A stretch of 64,000 nt of DNA, taken from contig NZ_PQIA01000021.1 of assembly GCF_003385235.1 (NCBI RefSeq), positions 1 through 64,000 on the forward strand, given 5' to 3'. The translations under genes and the position numbers were made by a program. The notes under the pieces are model-generated. The model searched no databases. It worked only from the letters and a program-made list of their open reading frames with translations, and had not been told where the DNA came from. Below are positions 13,734-30,671 of the stretch, piece after piece; positions within the stretch are counted from its first letter, which is position 1, and the number at the start of each line of letters is the position of its first letter. This DNA is from Amycolatopsis circi (GTDB taxonomy: Bacteria; Actinomycetota; Actinomycetes; Mycobacteriales; Pseudonocardiaceae).

Positions 13734-13806
13734 GCGCCATTAGCTCAATTGGCAGAGCAGCTGGCTCTTAACCAGCGGGTTCGGGGTTCGAGTCCCTGAT
13801 GGCGCA
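13734..13806 (+). tRNA. tRNA-Lys (CTT), integration target
   Basis: Complete cloverleaf: acceptor GCGCCAT with ATGGCGC, D-arm AGCTCAATTGGCAGAGC, and a T-arm with GGTTCGAGTCCC. The anticodon loop CTCTTAA gives anticodon CTT, and the discriminator is A13806. CCA is not encoded. The 3' part from 13765 onward is repeated at 32520-32567, and an integrase gene remnant ends inside the tRNA, so this gene is the attachment site of the island. Confidence 0.96.
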
Positions 13807-13812
13807 CCCTCA
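13765..13812 (+). repeat. attachment-site copy 1 (tRNA-Lys 3' end)
   Basis: 48 bases identical to 32520-32567, covering the anticodon stem-loop through the tRNA 3' end and six bases beyond. Similarity continues for about 35 more bases with two changes and covers the hairpin after the tRNA. Direct orientation and the adjacent integrase remnant identify it as an att core. Confidence 0.9.
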
Positions 13813-13856
13813 ATCCCCAGGCTCGAGAAGTTTTCGGCCTGGGGATTTCGGTTTTC
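13812..13856 (+). terminator. tRNA-Lys terminator inside the att region
   Basis: AATCCCCAGG (13812-13821) pairs with CCTGGGGATT (13838-13847), followed by a T-rich tail ending GGTTTT. The element carries the same hairpin at its second att copy, so integration preserves a terminator for the tRNA. Confidence 0.8.
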
Positions 13857-14266
13857 TGGAAGGGTTTCTTCCGTTTCCGGACTGTCCACTGTGGTCGTTG
13901 GCGAGCCCGAGGCGAGCCCGAGACTTCGCGCCGACTGCCGAGGGATGATCGCCGCCGTCGCCTCCGCCGCCGCGAACGCTACTTGTGGCAGGACGGTGGT
14001 GTAGGTGTTGGCGGTGACGGTGATCGAGGAGTGCCGCAGCATCCGCTGCACGACCTTCATCTCCACCCCCGCCGCGAGAGCCAGCGTCGCCGCGCCGTGG
14101 CGCAGATCGTGCAGACGGATCGGCGGAAGCCCGGCCTGGCGGATCAGCTCATAGAACACGTCGGTGACATGCGCCGGGTGCAACGGGCTCCCGTCCCACT
14201 GGGTGAAGGCCAGGTCGTGTTCCTTCCACTGCGACCCGAGACGCGCCCGGTCCGCGTCCTGCACCT

Positions 14267-15476
14267 GCGAGTGCCGAAAATTACGTCCAAGCAGGTCAAG
14301 CCGCGTGTTGGTACTCGTGGATGAGTCCGCCGAGTCGGTCTTCTCGGCGTACGGCGAGGTGTTCGATGCGGTCGAGCTGAAGGGGCTGAGGCCGGGTTCG
14401 CAGCGGTGCCGCAGCAGCCAGTGATCGGTGGGTTCGGTGCCGGTTGTAATGCTGCTCGTACTCGTTAAGCACGCGCCGGAGGTGGGTCTCGTTCCAGATC
14501 AGCGTGCGGTCCAGCAGCTCGGCGCGCAGTGTCTTCACCCACCGTTCGGTGATTGCGTTCATCCGGGGCATCCGGACACCGGTCAGCACCGTGGTGATCC
14601 CGGCGCTACCCAGGATCTCGTCGATCAAGGCGGGATACTTGGCATCGCGGTCGCGGATGAGGAACCTGAACCGTGCGAGGCTTCCGGCGTCCTCGAGATC
14701 CATGAGCAGGTTGCGGACGGCCTGCGTCACCCAGGCATGCGTGGGGTGCGCGGTGGTGCCGAGAATGCGGACGCGCCTGCCAGTGTGGTGAATGGCGACG
14801 AGGATGTACTGCCGGGCTCCGGTGAGGGTGATGGTTTCGATGAAGTCCATCGCCAGGATCGCCTCGGCTTGGGCACGGAGGAAATTTGCCCAGGTGACAG
14901 TCGCGCGTTGCGGTGCCGGGTCGATGCCATTGGCCTTGAGGATCTCCCAAACACTGGAGGGAGCGATCACGATGCCGAGGAGGGCAAGTTCGCCGTGGAT
15001 GCGCCGGTAGCCCCAGGAGGCGTTCTCGGCTGCCATGCGGAGGACGAGACGGCGGATCGACGCGACGGTACGCGGACGCCCAGGCCCGCGGTCGGCGCTC
15101 GCGCGGGCATGGCGGCGTTTGGCTAGGTCGCGATGCCAGCGCAGCACGGTGTCCGGGCCGACCAGCAGGCGGAGCCGACGCAGTGTCGCACGGGCCAGCG
15201 GCACGAGCAGCACCGCCAACAGCGCCCGGTCCTCGGGTCGTAGCCGTGGGCGTTGGTCGCCAAGTTGTCGTTGCAGGATGGCGAGTTGGTGGCGTAGAGC
15301 GAGGATTTCGATGTCCTTCTCGCGGTTGGTCATCGGCAGTAGTCGCAATGCGGCGAAGGCGTGGGTGACGGCGAGATAGGCGAAGCGAACGAGCACGAGC
15401 CGCGATCATGCCCGACGGCGATCAGTCACACGCCGATGGCCCCTGACCTGCATGGACGGATTATTCGGCACGCACA
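14267..15476 (-). mobile_element. insertion sequence with rve-type transposase (IS copy A, intact)
   Basis: Roughly 1.2 kb bounded by related inverted ends. The left end reads TGCGAGTGCCGAAAATTACG and the right end, on the opposite strand, TGTGCGTGCCGAATAATCCG; both continue into TCCAxGCAGGTCA. One full transposase gene fills the element. No clear target duplication is visible, and each flanking gene (integrase, Shedu) is truncated exactly at an IS end. This suggests a deletion between two insertions or IS-mediated rearrangement. Ends are accurate to a few bases. Confidence 0.82.
14296..15396 (-). CDS. IS transposase, integrase-core (DDE) type
   Basis: A 366-residue transposase related to the IS481/IS3 group. 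An N-terminal HTH region begins REKDIEILALRHQLAILQRQ. The DDE catalytic core shows AMDFIET (first Asp), LIRDRDAKYP with MPRMNAITERWVKTLR (second Asp region and Glu), and the C-terminus is RLGGLIHEYQHAA. The frame is intact, so it may be active. Related but broken copies occur at 32926-33960 and 43232-44320. Confidence 0.88.
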   Translation of the reverse strand: MLVRFAYLAVTHAFAALRLLPMTNREKDIEILALRHQLAILQRQLGDQRPRLRPEDRALLAVLLVPLARATLRRLRLLVGPDTVLRWHRDLAKRRHARASADRGPGRPRTVASIRRLVLRMAAENASWGYRRIHGELALLGIVIAPSSVWEILKANGIDPAPQRATVTWANFLRAQAEAILAMDFIETITLTGARQYILVAIHHTGRRVRILGTTAHPTHAWVTQAVRNLLMDLEDAGSLARFRFLIRDRDAKYPALIDEILGSAGITTVLTGVRMPRMNAITERWVKTLRAELLDRTLIWNETHLRRVLNEYEQHYNRHRTHRSLAAAAPLRTRPQPLQLDRIEHLAVRREDRLGGLIHEYQHAA

Positions 15477-19620: not shown

Positions 19621-21305
19621 TTATCTCTTGGTTCGTCCGCGTACTGAAAGAATCGCCAGACCCAGCAGCACAGGACCGCTAAGGCGTACGAGAATCTGAA
19701 TGGCTACGCCCCATCCAGTGAGCCGGTCGGAGGTGCTTCCGCCGATGAGTTTGGTGGCCGCGTCAGCGACATGGACCAGGGATGCCGACCACGTGTGCGG
19801 ATCCGCGAAGCCATACCGGTTCATCAGCGTTGCGCAGGCCAGCATGAGCACGGCCAGACAGCCCACCGCTCGCCAGCCGCGCAAGCCGTAGCCGGACGTC
19901 AGCCAGTACAGCCGCAAGACAAGCCCCTCCGCGCTCCGTCGAGGAGTTGCACGGCGCCGCATTTCCATCTCGCCGAAGTAGAAGTCGGCGGCGTTGGGCT
20001 CGTCCTTCGCGTCTTCACGGGCTTTGCGTAGCTGCCGATACACCCGTGCCGCATCCTTGGCGTCGATCGGTCCCACCGATGCTGTGAGGTCCTGCAGCAG
20101 CGGCGCCCAGTCGGCTCCGGACGCCGAGTCGGTGCGCACCGCTGCCTCTTCCGCGACGATGCGGCGCTTTGCGCGCTTCAGTACCCAAGGCCACCGCCGG
20201 GAGATCCGGAAGCGGTGCGGAGTCCACGGAAAGGAACCCGCTTCGAAGCGAAGCTTGTCGAGGTTGTAGACGTCGCTGAGCAAACAGGTGCCCAAGCTGA
20301 CCGCGGCGAGCGTGAGATTAGTGACGTCCGTGCCGCTGAGCGATCGCACCCGGCAAATGGACCTGCTGTCAATCGTGGCTGGCGCTGCGAACCGGGCCTT
20401 CTCCAAGATCAGGTCAGCATGTTCGAGCACTAGCGAGGATTGGACAGCGAAGGTGGTGTTCACCAACTCCATCCGGCCTACCTCGATGTCGAGGTCTACC
20501 GCTCCATCGAACCGGACGTGCTCGAACCGCAAACGATCTCTGAACACGCGCCGCGGAAGCTGACCGGCCCGAGGAACCGAACATCGCGAAACACGACCGG
20601 GGAGTGAAACTGGGCCGAGTCGAAGATGACCGGGCCCTGGAACTCCACGTTGCGGAACGCGACCTCGCCACAATAGGTCCCAGAGTGGAAACTCACCGAG
20701 CCTGCGAAGGTGACATCGCAAATCTCGAGCGGCGCACTGGATTGCATCCGGTCGAGGCTCAGCGCACTCCGGAAAGTCGAGCTCTCAACCATGAACCGCC
20801 CTGAGGCGGCTGCATCCTGAAGGCGGACGTCGGCCTTTGCGTCGAGTCTGCTCAGTTCGAGGCCTGCGGCATAGCTCCCGGCATTGAGCGACAACTCGCT
20901 CCCGGTCTCCGACCGTTCGATCAGGACAGGATCGGCCGCACTCACTGCGTCGAGGGAGAGCTTTCCGTCGAAGACGCAGTCAGTCAGCATCAGCGGCGTG
21001 AGCAGGGCGGCGGCCACCAAAGTAAAGTCGTCTCGGAACACGCAGTCGACGAAGCACAGCGGTCCTTGGGCAGTGCTCCGGTCGAGCGTGACGGGACCGA
21101 TGGACTCGACGTTGTCGAACCGCATGGCACGCTGGAGAGTCCCACCGCGAAAGTCGATCCCTTCGGTGATCGAAACCCGGGTGAAGTTGGCCGCGCCGAC
21201 GACGGCGGCGACCATTTCGATACTCGCGACAGCAGCGTCGGAAACCGACAACGATTCGACCGTCGTCAGGCTGATCCTGTGCTGCACATCCTCACGGCGG
21301 CCCAC
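19621..21305 (-). pseudogene. pentapeptide/beta-helix membrane protein broken by one frameshift
   Basis: Two overlapping frames join into one protein of about 560 residues. The 5' frame (from 21305) holds quasi-repeats such as VTLDRSTAQG, LCFVDCVFRD and VAFRNVEFQGPVIFDS, typical of right-handed beta-helix pentapeptide-like proteins. Around 20547 the frame is lost by one base; the repeats resume in the next frame (LRFEHVRFDGAVDLD). The C-terminal part has ARVYRQLRKAREDAKDEPNAADFYFGEMEMRRRA and three membrane segments, as in actinobacterial pentapeptide-repeat membrane proteins. A single missing base is the only visible lesion, so sequencing error cannot be excluded. Confidence 0.75.
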
Positions 21306-22471: not shown

Positions 22472-22570
22472 CAGACGCCGCCGCGCTTGCGGACCTGAAA
22501 CTGCCCTCGATCACCAGCATCCCGCTCGAAACCCGCTGGTCAGAACTGGGACCGTCTGCATGTAGCCCTG

Positions 22571-22592
22571 CCCAGGGCTCGAACCTGCGACC
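22571..22592 (-). other. tRNA T-arm-like sequence, possible old att scar
   Basis: On the minus strand this reads GGTCGCAGGTTCGAGCCCTG, which matches the T-stem, T-loop and variable-loop edge of a tRNA 3' end. No complete tRNA surrounds it. It lies 100 bases beyond the DUF2637-like gene, just as the second att copy lies beyond the sister gene at 31634-32326. Confidence 0.4.
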
Positions 22593-22675: not shown

Positions 22676-25600
22676 TCAAGGCTGCTCGTCGGCTAGCGGG
22701 GTGAGGTCGCGGATCATGGCCCGTGCTTCGTCTCTGCACAGCTCGCTCCATCGAGCGAGGTCACGGGCAGCGTGCCGCCGCACGTGCGACGGAGCCGTTT
22801 CGTCTCGGGCGACGGCTCGCGCGACCCCGGCAGCTGTTTCCCGCCAGTCGCGCCGCAATGCGACCAGCGCCTCTGCACACCGGACACGGACTACGCCGCC
22901 GAGTCCCTCGTCTCGAGCCATCGCGCTGAGAGCTGCCTCTGCCGTCACAGGATCAATGGTGGCGGTGGCGAGGAGAATCTTTCTGCGGCACAAGGGTGCC
23001 TCCGCCCTCATGCCGTGCAAGGCGCTCAAGACCTCGCGATGACCGCTGGGAAGGAGATCGGCGAGCGCTTGCGCTGCTTCGGCTCGCACGGCGGTCGCCA
23101 CAGTTGTGTCGTGCATGAGCCCGCGGAGCACAGTCACTGCTCGTTCGCGGCCCGGCACTCCGAGCGTGGCGAGCGTGCCTGCGACGAACCGGCGCAACGC
23201 GGGCCTCACCGCCGCGTCCGCGGCGATCCCGTGGAGAATCTGCAAGCCTGAGGCTCGGTCCTCGACGGTCCTGTCGAGGAGTTTCTCGGCTGCTCGCCAC
23301 CGGACGACAGGTGTCTGCCGCAGGTCGTCGCGCAATGCCCGGAGCCTGTCGAGACCGTCGATCTGCCCCAGCGCGAAGACCGCATCGACGCGGTCCCGGT
23401 CCGACGACCGCTCGTCCTGCGCGACCTGCCGCATCAAGTGGACCACAGAATCGGGCAAGTCCGTGGTGATGTCCATGGCGAGGCGGGCTGCGCGCAGCCG
23501 GTCCCGCAATGGCAGCGTTTCGTTACGGAGCTGGTTCTCCGCCCAGTCCTGCACCTCCCGCCGGACTGACGGGCCGAATGCGGCCAGTTCTTTCCGGGCC
23601 TGGTAGGCGGCGTGTTCCTGCTGGGCAAAGCGGTTGAGCAGGCGGATCCCTTCAGGCAGATGCCGCCGCGACAGGCGCGCGAGCGCCGCCGCGGCGCTGA
23701 CTCGTTCGGACGGCAGGGACTCGACTGCGGCAAGCACGTCGCGCACTTCCGTCTCTGCTTCTGCCGCCAGCGGCAAATCTCCCCACACGTCGCGTTGGGG
23801 CAGGCGATCCTCGATCGCGGCGGAGCGGTCGGCCAGCAAGGCCCGCTCGATCTCGGTGCGCACCTTTCTCGGGAGCCTCTCGGCGAGGCGACGTCGATCA
23901 TAGGGTTCGGTCCAGGGGTCTTGCACGACAGCGATCAACAGGGGGTTGAGCTCGTAACGCCAGGAGAGGAGGTTGTCCAGCCATGCGGCGCTTGCGCGCC
24001 GCGCGTTCGACGGCATTCGGGGGTCCTCGGCGTTCCGGCGGAGGAAGTCGATCGCCAGTCGTTTGCCGCCCCGGTTCAACTGCGCGAGGAGGTACGCGGC
24101 AGCGGCTCGGTTGGCAATGTTCTCCTGCGCGTCCTCGATCACCTGTTGGTGGTAGCGGGCCGCTGGTTCGCGGAGGGCGTGGTCGAGTTCGACGAGGACC
24201 TGCCAGATGTCGGAGCGCGTGTCGAAGGCGAGGTGGTCGTCGTCGACCCAGCGTTGCAGTTCCGCTCGCACCTTGTCGGCGGAATCAGGAGCCAGAGCCG
24301 CGAGCAGTGCCGCTGCGGCGCTGCGAGCGGTGATGTCGACGTCGCGATCCCCGGCGACGGCTTGAAGCTGGGGCACCACCTCGGCACCGAGTTCGGCGAG
24401 ATCGAGAACAGCGGCGCGCCACCCGGGCCGCCACGATTCGGAACGCATTTGAAAGACGGTTTCTCTGGCTTCCGCCAGGAAGCCGGGGTTCATTCTCGCC
24501 AGCGCGAGAGCTGCGTCGGTTCGCACCCGGAAATCCGCTGATTCGTCCCGGGCGATGCACCGCAGGACGGTCGCCGTCTCGTGCCTAGTTCGATCACCGA
24601 GCATAGCGAGAGCTTCGGTGGCGTCCCATTTTTCCTCGGACGACGAATGCGGATTGAGTATCAGGTCGCGTAGCGCTTCGCGGACCTCGGCGCGTATTCC
24701 AGTCCCCGTCGCGGTGAAGCTCTGCACAGCAGCGGTTAGGTTCACGTCAACGTTCGTCGGCGAGCGCAACAATTCGCAGAGGGCACCGGCAGCGCCGCGA
24801 TGAAACTTGCGTCCGAGTGCGACCAGTTCGCGGGTTGCGGAGATCCGGGCGCGCAGGCTGCGTTCTTCGCTGGCCTGGACGGCGTTCAGCGCTCGCGCTA
24901 CCTGCTCGACGTGCTTGCGATCCGTCGAGGCCACCGCAGAGGCAACGTGGAGCGAAAGGGCTCCGGCCGGCCCCTCGGACGACGCCAAGTCGAGCAGAGC
25001 TTCGCACGCCTGGTCGTGGACCGATGCATCGAGCATGAGGAGTTCCCGCCAGGCCCTCGAGACGATTTCGGAGTCGAGGCCGCTCGCGGCCAGGGCTCGC
25101 AGATGTGAACACGCTTCGGCGTGGAACTCGGGGCCGATGTCGGCTAGGAGTTGCGCTGCGCGGAAGCGTGCCCACGGATCCGCGGCGCAATCGGATGCGA
25201 TGGCGCGCAGCCGGTCCAACGCTTGTTGTCGGTGTGGATCGCTGGTCAGCCGGGCGAGTTCGCCGAGCGTTTGCGCGCGGTCATCGCCGTTAACAGCGGG
25301 GTCGTCGAGAAGTTTCCACATCGTGTCGGCCGCTTCGCTCTGCAATTCCGGGCTGATTTCCGCCAGGTAGCGAGCGGCGAACAGGATGTTGTTGGTGTTC
25401 GCCTCGGGGTCCGTGATCACCGAACGCAGCTCGGCAACGGAGCGGAGCTTGAACTCTGCGCCCAGTTGGGCCAGTTGGTACGCGCAAGTATGTCGCTCGA
25501 ACGGCATGATTCCTCGTTCTCCGAGGATTTCGATCAGCAGTTTGCCCGCGGCGATCCGGTGTTGCGGGCCGAGTTCGCTGAGTATGTTCGCAGCTGTTGC

Positions 25601-27970
25601 CCGGTCGAAGCGGTGGCGGCGGCGATCGGTGATCAGCGCGGTGATCTCGGTGGCGGCGTCGGCGAGGCACTGGGGTCCCAGGGACGCCAGCCCGAGCGCA
25701 GCGTCGCGCCGGCCGGCCATGCTGTCCCGCTCCACCGGGTCGCGCAATACAGCGCGGAAGACCTCGGCGCAACGTTCGTGGAACTCGGTGCCGATTTCGA
25801 CCAGGCCGGTGGCCGCTGCGACGAGGTCGTCGGTCGGCGTGTCGGGGTCTGCCAGCAGCTGCGACAAGGTCTTCACTGCGTCCGCTCGAGCGCGGGCGCC
25901 GAAGGCGGACAGGACGATCGCGGCTGTGCGGCAGTTCTTTCCCGACGCGAGCGGGTCGCGCAGAACCGAGCGGAGGCCTCGTTCTGCGGTGTCGCGTTCG
26001 GCGGTGCCGCTGTGGGCCAAGGCTTCGGCGGCGGCCAGGCGATGGTCGATCGGCACGCCGTCGTCGTCTGCGACGGTGCGCAGCAACGCCGTCGCCTCGG
26101 AGCTGTGGGTGCCGCGCACCCTGATCGCCAGCGCCGAGGCCGCCTCGACCCGGGACGGCCATGGAGCGTCGCTCGTTCTCATCAAGTCCAGCAGCCACTC
26201 GACAAGTCCCGGATGGTGTACGGCGCGGCAGGTTTGCCGCAGGATCTCCCCGGCGGCGTACTGGGTCGTCATGGCCCAGCCGCGGGCCGTCGCCATGAAC
26301 GCGTCGGTCGTGTCAGCGCCCGCCGGGATATGGCGTGCGAGGAGCCGGGCGGCGAGCAGATGCTGGTCAGAGCTTCCGGCGTGCAGGCGGCTCATCAGCG
26401 GGTCCGCCTGATCGGGGCGCAAGCGCGCGTAGTGGAGCAGCACGGCGCGGGCGTGGCGCCCGGCGTCCTTTGGCAGCGCGCTGTGCAGGAGGTTCGCGAA
26501 CCCGCCGTCGTCCGGGTCGAACTGCTCCGGCAGGGTGCGCGCGGTCGCCGTGGCGGCGAGATGTTCGGCGAAGCTGTGGTGCAGGAACGCCAGATCGCCG
26601 CCGCGGACGACCAAGGGCCCCGTCGACGCCAGGAACACGCGCAGCTGTGCTTCCCAGCCGTCCGCGAGCTCCGGTGCCGGGACGTTCCGCAGCGCCCAGT
26701 CGCGTGCCGCCTCGACGAGCGAGGTGTCGCGCTCCAAGCGCACCAGGCCCAGGTGTTCGAGCAGCGCCGCGCGTCGACGACCGAACGGTCTCGGTGCGCA
26801 GGTTCGCGCGGCCCCCAGGAAAGCGAGGTACGCGTCGTAGAGTTCGTACTGGTTGTCCGGCAGGGGTTGTCCGTCGGACTGCTCGTAGGTGATCGCCGCG
26901 ATCGTCGCGAGCAACGGCACCGAGACAAGTTCGTCCAGATGCGCGTCGCGGACGTCCCGCAGGAAATGCTGGGCGCGTTCAGGACCGACCTCGGCGAACC
27001 AGTTCTCCGCGAAGCGTCGCAACGCCTCGTCGTCGAAAGGCTGGAGCTCGTAACGCGCCGCCCCGATGCGCTGCAGCGGAGCCAGCGCGGCACCCTCGAT
27101 CGGCCGAGTCGTCACCACCACGCGGTAGGCCGAATCCGGCGAACTCGACGCCCACGCAGCCAGAACCGACACCAGCCGATCCCGTTCACCACTGCCGGCC
27201 ACCTCGTCGAGGCCGTCCACCAGCAGCAACCAGGGACAGCCGACGACCCGGTCGTTCAGCGCCGAACCGGTCAACGGAACACTCAGCAACGCGCCGTACT
27301 CGACGCGCGCGCTCGCCGCGAGCGCCTCCGCGAACGGAAGATCCAACCGCGCGGCCAGCTCCCGGGCGGTGAGCCGCAGCGGCACCACGGCGTCCGGCAG
27401 CGGAGCAGCGACGTCGCCCACCGCAGTCCACTGTTCTGCGATATCCGCTGCCAAACGCAGAGATAACGTCGATTTTCCTTGCCCCGGACCGCCGGTGATC
27501 ACGAGATGCCGGTCGGAGTCCAGCACCTCGCGGACCGCGCGCGCCGGCGGCCGCACCATTACACGGGCATTCCATGCGCGAGACACGTCCACGATCTGCC
27601 CGCGGTCGTCGAGCATCGGAGTCGGGCTCGGCTGCTCCGGTTGTGTCGTTTCCGCGCCGGCGCCGAGTTCCTGGCGCACGTAGACCGTGGCCAGCGACGG
27701 CCGACGAGCCCCGGGCAACCGGTACGGAAGCTCCGTAGCCGCCTGAACCTGGGCGCGCAGCAACGACCGGACCTCCGGCAGAAGACCGCCCAGGCGAGGG
27801 TTCCCGCATGAAGGCGCGGGATTCTCCTCCGCCGACGAGGAATTCCGATCGAATTCGTCAAGGTGCAGGTGGACATGCACTCCGCCCTGGATGGAGCCGG
27901 CCTGCACAGTAGGGCCGGAGACGGTCCCTTCGACACGGTTGGTGTTCTCCCAACGCTCGTCCCGGCCCAC
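22676..27970 (-). CDS. giant NACHT NTPase with HEAT-repeat sensor (NLR-like defence protein)
   Basis: A 1764-residue intact protein. An N-terminal strip VEGTVSGPTVQAGSIQGGVHVHLH (about 12-36) is a short motif frequent at the N-terminus of actinobacterial signalling/defence proteins. The NACHT NTPase follows: Walker A GGPGQGKST (160-168), Walker B LLLVDGLDEV (248-257), a sensor TTRPIEG and a winged-helix part with LHHSFAEHLAA (about 470). From about 560 to the end run HEAT/ARM-like helical repeats of 30-40 residues (LAxLGPxxxxEAxxxLRxLxxD pattern). Bacterial NACHT proteins of this design can act in anti-phage immunity. GTG 27970 has GGAGGGAG upstream; longer frames are unlikely. It stands alone in debris and needs no visible partner. 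Confidence 0.85.
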   Translation of the reverse strand: MGRDERWENTNRVEGTVSGPTVQAGSIQGGVHVHLHLDEFDRNSSSAEENPAPSCGNPRLGGLLPEVRSLLRAQVQAATELPYRLPGARRPSLATVYVRQELGAGAETTQPEQPSPTPMLDDRGQIVDVSRAWNARVMVRPPARAVREVLDSDRHLVITGGPGQGKSTLSLRLAADIAEQWTAVGDVAAPLPDAVVPLRLTARELAARLDLPFAEALAASARVEYGALLSVPLTGSALNDRVVGCPWLLLVDGLDEVAGSGERDRLVSVLAAWASSSPDSAYRVVVTTRPIEGAALAPLQRIGAARYELQPFDDEALRRFAENWFAEVGPERAQHFLRDVRDAHLDELVSVPLLATIAAITYEQSDGQPLPDNQYELYDAYLAFLGAARTCAPRPFGRRRAALLEHLGLVRLERDTSLVEAARDWALRNVPAPELADGWEAQLRVFLASTGPLVVRGGDLAFLHHSFAEHLAATATARTLPEQFDPDDGGFANLLHSALPKDAGRHARAVLLHYARLRPDQADPLMSRLHAGSSDQHLLAARLLARHIPAGADTTDAFMATARGWAMTTQYAAGEILRQTCRAVHHPGLVEWLLDLMRTSDAPWPSRVEAASALAIRVRGTHSSEATALLRTVADDDGVPIDHRLAAAEALAHSGTAERDTAERGLRSVLRDPLASGKNCRTAAIVLSAFGARARADAVKTLSQLLADPDTPTDDLVAAATGLVEIGTEFHERCAEVFRAVLRDPVERDSMAGRRDAALGLASLGPQCLADAATEITALITDRRRHRFDRATAANILSELGPQHRIAAGKLLIEILGERGIMPFERHTCAYQLAQLGAEFKLRSVAELRSVITDPEANTNNILFAARYLAEISPELQSEAADTMWKLLDDPAVNGDDRAQTLGELARLTSDPHRQQALDRLRAIASDCAADPWARFRAAQLLADIGPEFHAEACSHLRALAASGLDSEIVSRAWRELLMLDASVHDQACEALLDLASSEGPAGALSLHVASAVASTDRKHVEQVARALNAVQASEERSLRARISATRELVALGRKFHRGAAGALCELLRSPTNVDVNLTAAVQSFTATGTGIRAEVREALRDLILNPHSSSEEKWDATEALAMLGDRTRHETATVLRCIARDESADFRVRTDAALALARMNPGFLAEARETVFQMRSESWRPGWRAAVLDLAELGAEVVPQLQAVAGDRDVDITARSAAAALLAALAPDSADKVRAELQRWVDDDHLAFDTRSDIWQVLVELDHALREPAARYHQQVIEDAQENIANRAAAAYLLAQLNRGGKRLAIDFLRRNAEDPRMPSNARRASAAWLDNLLSWRYELNPLLIAVVQDPWTEPYDRRRLAERLPRKVRTEIERALLADRSAAIEDRLPQRDVWGDLPLAAEAETEVRDVLAAVESLPSERVSAAAALARLSRRHLPEGIRLLNRFAQQEHAAYQARKELAAFGPSVRREVQDWAENQLRNETLPLRDRLRAARLAMDITTDLPDSVVHLMRQVAQDERSSDRDRVDAVFALGQIDGLDRLRALRDDLRQTPVVRWRAAEKLLDRTVEDRASGLQILHGIAADAAVRPALRRFVAGTLATLGVPGRERAVTVLRGLMHDTTVATAVRAEAAQALADLLPSGHREVLSALHGMRAEAPLCRRKILLATATIDPVTAEAALSAMARDEGLGGVVRVRCAEALVALRRDWRETAAGVARAVARDETAPSHVRRHAARDLARWSELCRDEARAMIRDLTPLADEQP

Positions 27971-28181
27971 CCGTTCTCCCTCCGCCGCCACGACCGAATG
28001 TTCCCACGCGCACAGCGGCACGGAAGACTTCTGGCGTCTCGAAAATTCGCCGACATCGCCGTCAACCCGCGCACGCGACGCGGGGTTCTGTCGACGCTGT
28101 CCCCACGGCAGCCGGCCAATCCGGTCAGCCGAAATCGCGGTCTTCGCTGGAATTGTCGGTTGGTTCTGGTACCCAGTCCTC

Positions 28182-28430
28182 ATGTACGTCTACGGGGGAA
28201 CGGTCCGCGCGGCCGCCGAGGAGATGTCAGCGTCCGCGGCGGGGTTCGTCGGCGCGTGCGCGCGCCGGTTCCAGCAGATCCACGGGGATCCGGCGGGGGA
28301 CGCGGAGCGCCGGAGCTGGCACGCGAGCTGGCCGCCGATGCTCGACGCGCTGGTGAACGCGGGCCTGGGAGAGTTGTGGCTGTGCCTGGACCGGACGTAC
28401 GCGCGTCACAGCCGAACGCCCCAGCCGTCA
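28182..28430 (+). pseudogene. possible N-terminal fragment of a DUF2075-type ATPase/helicase
   Basis: About 80 residues starting MYVYGGTVRAAAEEM resemble the opening of DUF2075 (schlafen-related) proteins: a tyrosine-rich first strand, then FVGACARRFQQIHG, RRSWHASWPPMLDALVNAGL and a final GELWLCLDRTY. After that the frame dissolves into repeats and transposase debris, so the NTPase part is gone. It is divergent from the NACHT gene, 211 bases away. The assignment rests on pattern memory and is moderate. Confidence 0.4.
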
Positions 28431-29307: not shown

Positions 29308-30330
29308 CTACCACCATTGCCCTTCGGTGAAACCATCAAACATTGGCGTGCTGACAACCGCACCCGAATGAACCGCGTTCGTCAGTTGTGCGCGCGAAAA
29401 ATCCACCCTGCTCAAATTGACGTCGGACAAGTTTGCGCCGACGAGAAAAGCGCCGGCCAGAGATGCACCGCTCAGGTTCGACGAGCTGAGATCGGCACCA
29501 GCGGCATCGACCTGGCAAATTTGCGCTTCCGCAAGATTCGAAGCGACCAGATTAACGTTTCTCATCTCCGCTTCCATGAAGATCGCCCTCTTCAGCCGCG
29601 ACATACTGATTTGCGCATTCTGAAGATAAGCACCAGTGAAGTTCGCTCCTTCTGCGTCGACCATCGAAACATTTGCTCCGATCATTTTTGTGTATATCAT
29701 CGTCGCATTATTCAGGCACGCACCCGCCAGGTCTGCGTTGACAAGATCCGCAGAGTCCAGCTTTGCACTGCAAAGGTACGCGTGGTTCAAATCAGCGCCG
29801 TTGAGCTGCGCCGAGGACAGGTCGCTGCCAGCGAGGACCGCGTATTTCAGGACGGCGCCGTCCAAACGCAGGTTGCTGAGATCGATTCCATTCAAGCAGG
29901 TTCGGGACAGGTCGGTGCTGGTGCCGCCGTCCCGCGCATGATCGCGACGGCCCAAAACGATGAGCGCCGCCCACGCGTCCTGCCCGAGCGCGGCAGGTGC
30001 CGGGCAGCTAGGCCCCGACACCTCGGACCCTTTGCCGAAAACGGGGGCGGGGCGAGTAGCGCGCACGAACGCGGACAGCATCTCGACAACGCTGGGCTGA
30101 TTCTGGGGCGCGTCCCTGGCAAGACGCTCGAGGGCGTAGACGGCGCCTATTCTGCCATCCAGATGCTCCGGGCCCGATTGGTCCAACTGGGCAACGGCCC
30201 TGGTGTATCTGTCCGCAAGCTGGGCTTGCTCGTTCGCCTTGTTCTGCTCATGCGTGGCATTCAGTGCCAGACCAGAGAGAATCAACGCTCCGACAGCCGC
30301 GAGTGCCGTGATTGTCTCAGGCACTTTCAC
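29308..30330 (-). CDS. pentapeptide-repeat protein with N-terminal membrane anchor
   Basis: A 340-residue protein. A short N-terminal helix (ITALAAVGALILSGLAL) should anchor it in the membrane, followed by a charged helix (ATHEQNKANEQAQLADRYTRAVAQL). The stretch RIGAVYALERLARDAP is the helical element usually preceding such repeats. From about residue 160 to 335 are A(D/N)LXX pentapeptides (ADLNHAYLCSAKLDSADLVNADLAG and so on), which fold into a square beta-helix. I chose GTG 30330 because GAGGTGG lies just upstream and longer starts add only basic shadow sequence. GC content is visibly lower than in the core, consistent with transfer. Function unknown. Confidence 0.85.
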   Translation of the reverse strand: MKVPETITALAAVGALILSGLALNATHEQNKANEQAQLADRYTRAVAQLDQSGPEHLDGRIGAVYALERLARDAPQNQPSVVEMLSAFVRATRPAPVFGKGSEVSGPSCPAPAALGQDAWAALIVLGRRDHARDGGTSTDLSRTCLNGIDLSNLRLDGAVLKYAVLAGSDLSSAQLNGADLNHAYLCSAKLDSADLVNADLAGACLNNATMIYTKMIGANVSMVDAEGANFTGAYLQNAQISMSRLKRAIFMEAEMRNVNLVASNLAEAQICQVDAAGADLSSSNLSGASLAGAFLVGANLSDVNLSRVDFSRAQLTNAVHSGAVVSTPMFDGFTEGQWW

Positions 30331-30671
30331 GGTCCACCTCTTACTGCTGGGCGGAACATCCGCGCAGCCGGGTCGGATGATGCCACGTTTGTGCACGTTT
30401 GAGGGCGTGCGTCGGCGACGAGGATAAGTGCTGGCGGGCTGGCGCACTGAAACCGTCCAGAGAGGGTAGGGTGCAGAGACTCGGCTTAGGCTACCCATTG
30501 TCTCGGGCTACAAGGTATCTCGCTGTCAGTCAGCCAACCAGACTGATCACGACGTCATGGTCAAGTGCATGGGTCGCTTCTTCGAGCTTCACGCCCAAGC
30601 GAGTGCACGTCCGCGCCTTCCGGGGCGACCGCGCCGACATCCGCGAGATGCGAGCGAGGAGCGACCACCTC
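30331..30671. other. 341-bp stretch before the CRISPR repeats, no gene seen
   Basis: It contains the pentapeptide gene promoter region and leads into the first CRISPR repeat at 30672. No further repeat copy is clear at the expected 61-base spacing to the left, and no cas gene is present. Confidence 0.45.

Follow-up and report, generated by a model that had tools for sequence, protein, structure and literature searches.

Architecture of the NACHT-HEAT protein

The window analysed here is a stretch of 64,000 nucleotides from Amycolatopsis circi (contig NZ_PQIA01000021.1), whose genome comprises 9.8 Mb in 305 contigs. On its minus strand lies an intact open reading frame (22676-28183) encoding a large NLR-like protein, whose features are collected in Table 1. 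For the start codon we retained the choice of the original prediction, a GTG at 27970 preceded by a GGAGGG stretch. A Pfam search placed the NACHT domain (PF05729) at residues 155-327, with 31.2 bits against a cut-off of 26.7. The AlphaFold2 model covers residues 1-1180, and thus the solenoid as far as residue 1180; it shows a disordered region (residues 1-60) followed by the NACHT core, after which come a hairpin resembling a winged helix and many successive helix pairs. The solved structures nearest to it are NLRC4, NLRP3 and NOD2. The solenoid gave no HEAT match in the Pfam search. With a NACHT domain that holds both Walker motifs, and with a winged-helix part and a repeat sensor C-terminal to it, the protein has the composition of an NLR-type NACHT STAND NTPase. 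The original prediction of an intact NLR-like protein with NACHT and helical-repeat parts is confirmed.

No effector domain was found N-terminal to NACHT, as had been predicted, and no effector-associated domain (EAD) was among the Pfam matches of the protein at E ≤ 1. PADLOC gave three matches at E ≤ 1, all confined to the P-loop region. Animal NLRs such as NLRC4, NLRP3 and NOD2 have an LRR sensor and a CARD or PYD; here a HEAT-like solenoid takes the place of the LRR, and a short motif that of the CARD or PYD.

Table 1. Features of the NACHT-HEAT gene and of a family found beside its relatives
Feature	Position	Strand	Remarks
NACHT-HEAT NLR-like protein, 1764 aa	22676..27970	minus	GTG start; GGAGGG upstream
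N-terminal strip, residues 11-34, NRVEGTVSGPTVQAGSIQGGVHVH	27869..27940	minus	Also on C-terminal tails of Bell proteins
NACHT NTPase domain	26990..27508	minus	PF05729 above cut-off; structure matches NLRC4/NLRP3/NOD2
Walker A	27467-27490	minus	Within NACHT domain
Walker B	27203-27229	minus	Within NACHT domain
Winged-helix-like part, residues about 397-462	26585..26782	minus	Helices and beta hairpin (453-462) in AlphaFold2 model
HEAT-like helical solenoid, presumed sensor, residues 489-1764	22679..26506	minus	Helix pairs in model; 36-aa hydrophobic periodicity
Segment common with Amycolatopsis nivea at 97.7% identity	22562..28390		Flanks differ; apparent single-gene cassette
~260-aa family, motif at C-terminus, beside NLR-type genes	L041:6051-6833, L043:13175-13957, L044:6062-6838, L053:10427-11215		Cyclase-like by eye (GTGDGYGVGF)

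Distribution and apparent mobility

Close relatives of the protein, with 54-97% identity across most of the first 400 residues, were found in 11 other genomes when 80 genomes of the genus were searched, a patchy distribution (12 of 80). The search for related loci returned 31, one of them at 97% (A. nivea), 29 at 52-63%, from genera that we take to be Pseudonocardiaceae, and one at 39% in a Streptomyces. Outside the segment common to the A. nivea and window copies, the flanks are unrelated except for two short stretches (66-137 bases, 74-80%), which suggests that the NACHT-HEAT gene moves as a unit. Between these two copies dN/dS is 0.19; selection on the gene, which the original prediction had proposed, is therefore seen as purifying selection in one pairwise comparison.

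Several further features of the window were noted. The downstream end of the common segment, at 22562-22585 (GGTTCGAGCCCTGGGCAGGGCTAC), resembles a tRNA T-arm by eye and occurs once in the window when up to 3 mismatches are allowed; it is a possible attachment or recombination edge. Part of a tyrosine integrase (13740-14264, minus strand; truncated) overlaps a tRNA-Lys gene (13734-13808), and an rve_3 transposase-like ORF (14296-15396, minus strand) comes next; as the truncated integrase lies over the tRNA gene, 13734-15396 suggests the remnant of an integrated element. Pentapeptide-repeat ORFs flank the NACHT-HEAT gene on both sides (20496-21305 and 29308-30498, both minus strand).

A motif shared with the tails of small proteins

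The N-terminal strip sits in the disordered first 60 residues of the model and stands out as a conserved island from the variable residues on either side; its approximate consensus is N-x-[IV]-x-G-x-[VI]-x-G-x-x-[VL]-Q-[AV]-G-x-[IV]-x-G. It scores at least 9 bits within the large ORF in 25 of 31 relatives. The remaining six comprise two with a divergent strip (L129, L131), one that is strip-like by eye (L137), two with an XRE-like HTH by eye (L130, L132) and one with neither (L139).

A regular-expression scan of 20-kb neighbourhoods found the same pattern at the extreme C-terminus of small neighbouring proteins of two kinds, a ~115-aa protein starting with MPEP or MPDP and a ~260-aa protein. 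Two-gene systems of an NLR and a Bell protein, based on bacterial amyloid signalling (BASS), were reportedly described by Dyrka et al. in 2020. Bell, the partner of BASS-bearing NLRs, is characterized in the accessible text of PMC7889193 as a small protein folded into a helical bundle, with one hydrophobic helix and with the motif at its C-terminus. Our ~115-aa protein appears to fit this description, and 'Bell' is used here as a name by architecture. Its AlphaFold2 model, built from a three-sequence alignment, shows five helices and a short sixth, beyond which lies a disordered tail with the motif at about residues 91-115. In the three Bells that were measured, the best 19-residue hydropathy is 1.1-1.6 at residues 4-22, which is modest for a membrane helix. 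Comparison of the model with solved structures returned no convincing relative.

A model of 39 distinct Bell tails, with no NLR sequence among them, was scanned against 15,414 ORFs and recovered the strip of the window protein at 18.3 bits (E 0.02 for 200,000 ORFs). Above 8.6 bits there were 95 rows, of which 54 are C-terminal, 36 lie inside ORFs of at least 400 aa and 5 are short ORFs beside a Bell; these rows include duplicate loci, and the set is enriched since the scanned loci had been chosen by their matches to NACHT, Bell or the motif. Most of the 36 long ORFs are, as far as typed, NLR types. In a complementary direction, a Bell-domain model built without the tail, and hence free of the motif, found a Bell in 16 of the 21 genomes holding a NACHT-HEAT relative and no match in the other 5. 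The tails of 15 of these 16 Bells score at least 8 bits with the A2 model, a mix of NLR strips and partner tails, and the sixteenth, that of A. nivea, scores 23.6 bits with the Bell-tail model. With the families taken as a whole, sequence comparison thus places one common motif N-terminally in the NLR and C-terminally in Bell.

Across the genus, a Bell match (E ≤ 0.001) is present in 46 of 80 genomes, mostly one each. The A. circi genome has one clear Bell (G000:C242:41434-41763), on a different contig from the NACHT-HEAT gene. Its tail is a weak match to the combined motif model (E 0.96) and is absent from the A2-model listing at E ≤ 10, so that motif sharing is weak for the pair of this genome taken alone. 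The three-mer ARD, which BASS2 is said to carry in the part of the literature available to us, occurs in 20 of the 39 distinct Bell tails and is absent from the own-genome Bell and from the window strip; it gives a hint, and no more, that the motif may belong to BASS2.

Adjacency and co-occurrence

The NLR group holds 47 entries, six of them duplicates, leaving 41 distinct loci, four of which are shorter or distant relatives (L051-L053, L139). A neighbour with the motif in its last 15 residues is present at 7 of the 41 loci (a Bell at four, the ~260-aa type at four, both at one) and missing at 34. Bell adjoins or lies close to the NLR gene in L040, L048, L049 and L053, and in two genomes (G050, G077) it lies directly upstream on the same strand, within less than 60 nt. 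At the window locus the NLR and Bell genes are not adjacent: the window has no ORF of at least 60 aa with the motif (at least 10 bits) in its last 15 residues, and a motif-tailed partner is also missing beside the A. nivea sister copy (97.7% identical). The description of the protein as 'stand-alone' in the original prediction consequently holds locally, but not beyond the locus.

Among 297 genomes of the family, 35 have both NLR and Bell, 25 the NLR alone, 107 Bell alone and 130 neither, a weak co-occurrence (one-sided p = 0.046). One genus, g8, is conspicuous, with 16 of its 17 NLR genomes lacking a Bell match; excluding it gives p = 3e-5, an exclusion that is post hoc and was decided after seeing the data. 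The genus is probably Lentzea, because the genome of the Lentzea locus L133 and the g8 genome G284 have the same Bell match at the same place. One g8 genome with no Bell match encodes a divergent Bell-like protein with a motif tail (L173; 21.3 bits with the Bell model), so the gap in g8 may partly reflect a limit of that model. Genome-specific matching between NLR and Bell motifs was not found in 15 pairs (p = 0.12).

An XRE-like HTH (by eye) takes the place of the strip in three NACHT-HEAT relatives (L050, L130, L132). Two genomes with such relatives (G049 and that of L130) have no Bell match, while that of L132 also has strip-bearing relatives and a Bell. On contig C116 of A. circi we also noted a second, weakly Bell-like protein (L078:11429-11917, plus strand), which begins with a hydrophobic stretch and differs in its tail; it shares 35% identity over 82 residues with L173 and lies ~8 kb from a strip-bearing NB-ARC/TPR protein.

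Proposed mechanism and alternatives

The reading that we favour, and consider probable, is that the protein is an NLR-type sensor switch whose strip would template the motif of a Bell encoded in trans, with Bell doing the killing. The HEAT-like solenoid would sense a trigger, putatively phage, upon which the NACHT/winged-helix part would exchange nucleotide and oligomerise, bringing several disordered N-terminal strips close together. Once clustered, these strips would template the same motif at the Bell C-terminus; amyloid (cross-beta) assembly, the process that has been put forward for bacterial amyloid signalling sequences, is the most likely route. The Bell domain would then attack the membrane, so that the infected cell is killed or arrested. 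In A. circi the partner would be supplied by the Bell at G000:C242:41434-41763. The domain architecture, the conservation of the strip, the motif common to NLR N-termini and Bell tails, the adjacency of the genes in some relatives and the existence of a Bell elsewhere in the A. circi genome are shown by the data above; oligomerisation, templating as amyloid, killing, phage as the trigger and the choice of this Bell as partner are inferred from the published BASS model. The original prediction had held that the killing mechanism would be either new or supplied in trans. The second option gains support from the strip being common to the tail of a small helical partner family, and most likely the effector comes from a partner of a known kind encoded in trans; the first is not supported, as recruitment of a Bell-type partner by an NLR with a short N-terminal signalling motif is already published (PMC7889193, as far as its accessible text goes).

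It is unlikely, on balance, that the same motif logic acts through another partner, be it the ~260-aa class, a divergent Bell, or a kinase-like or EAD2 protein, with an output that could be a second messenger or another adaptor. Several observations favour it: in each of 13 genomes the combined motif model lists between 7 and 19 matches at E ≤ 1; the NACHT-HEAT gene of L041, L043 and L044 has as its neighbour the ~260-aa protein, whose tail reads, for example, NVITGMHGGTAIQIGRVHGNVNH; the strip is joined to EAD2 in L161 and to a weakly kinase-like part in L171; and the divergent Bell-like L173 comes from a genome with no Bell match. However, A. circi does have a Bell, whereas the ~260-aa protein has no clear homologue in this genome (best E 0.005, 26% identity). 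By eye, the motifs of that protein resemble those of a class III nucleotidyl cyclase, a tentative assignment for which neither Pfam nor NCBIfam (E ≤ 0.1 for each) nor the PDB sequences gave a match.

That the NACHT protein needs no effector, the solenoid or the NACHT ring itself being active, as could hold for clade 14 bNACHT proteins, and the strip a mere aid to oligomerisation, we regard as improbable. The 34 of 41 loci with no nearby motif-tailed partner would be expected under such a scheme, and protective effector-less bNACHT proteins are reported in the accessible text of PMC12169576. Yet the strip motif is common to the tail of an unrelated small protein family, and in some relatives another N-terminal module occupies its place, a position that is that of effectors and adaptors. 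Very improbable is a role in regulation rather than defence, in which this STAND protein of a filamentous actinomycete would serve development or secondary metabolism and the strip would be a general dimerisation tag: in the same genome, two NB-ARC/TPR proteins that bear the strip (L078:1260-3632 and L075:4587-6746, in the latter by eye) have partial AfsR-like matches, but far below the family cut-off, and against it stand the patchy distribution, the NLR fold, and an apparent cassette in unrelated contexts together with an integrase remnant in the window.

The favoured trans-acting Bell also allows a more tentative extension, which we would put somewhat short of probable. In a hub-and-spoke immune network, there would usually be one Bell executioner per genome, several NLR sensors (NACHT-HEAT, NB-ARC-TPR and others) would share one amyloid-type motif, and sensors would arrive as mobile, effector-less single-gene cassettes. 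Such a network would resemble plant sensor NLRs converging on helper NLRs.

Relation to known systems

Like the BASS systems in the accessible literature, the present one occurs in filamentous actinobacteria, and its NLR bears N-terminally a short motif that recurs at the C-terminal end of a small helical Bell. In the parts available to us, BASS systems are further covered in PMC8086366, PMC12261475 and PMC9815663; amyloid-like properties are described for the aggregates of a BASS3 peptide (PMC8086366), and foci for a GFP-BASS3 fusion (PMC9815663). In a Frankia protein, the effector-side BASS3 peptide spans residues 103-123, comparable to about 91-115 here. In contrast to the published families, which the available texts describe as motifs repeated in adjacent genes, NLR and Bell here are on separate contigs, with an NLR of NACHT-HEAT type that is 1764 aa long. 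Since those families were found via adjacent genes, an orphan NLR like this one could be missed; we infer that the window locus works like a BASS gene pair without being filed as one.

Anti-phage bNACHT proteins were reportedly described by Kibby et al. As in those proteins, a central NACHT module is combined here with a C-terminal sensor in a bacterial protein, and clade 14 members have no readily discernible effector and yet defend, according to the accessible text of the bNACHT25 paper (PMC12169576). The differences are a HEAT-like sensor of about 1200 residues and an N-terminal motif in place of a nuclease; phage protection by the window protein is putative.

Four things appear to be new, none of which turned up in a literature search that had the original BASS description outside its reach: the NACHT-HEAT sensor family with its motif, the fact that it is usually separate from Bell, its apparent mobility and a possible one-executioner network. 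The proposal gives a concrete, testable account of how an effector-less bacterial NLR could act, by recruiting through a short homotypic motif a partner whose gene lies elsewhere. If it is true, effector surveys limited to the same protein or operon overlook partners, mobile elements can carry a bare sensor that is functional wherever a Bell exists, and the parallel of amyloid signalling with fungal and animal (RHIM) systems extends to a large NACHT-HEAT receptor family across Pseudonocardiaceae.

A related logic is described for EADs (Kaur et al. 2020, 2021; accessible parts of PMC7159879 and PMC8195603): these small non-catalytic modules occur a second time as a fusion to an effector, either in a neighbouring gene or at another place of the same genome. 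The present system would likewise pair a small non-catalytic module with an effector-linked copy elsewhere, but the strip, a motif of ~24 aa, lies in a disordered stretch and is no folded EAD, and the window protein has no EAD match. Strip and EAD2 (PF19956, E 6.7e-22) are nonetheless fused in one strip protein (L161:1378-1890, plus strand), whose genome has no Bell match. This strip and EAD2 protein and the strip-bearing, weakly kinase-like protein are other motif carriers seen in genomes free of Bell matches.
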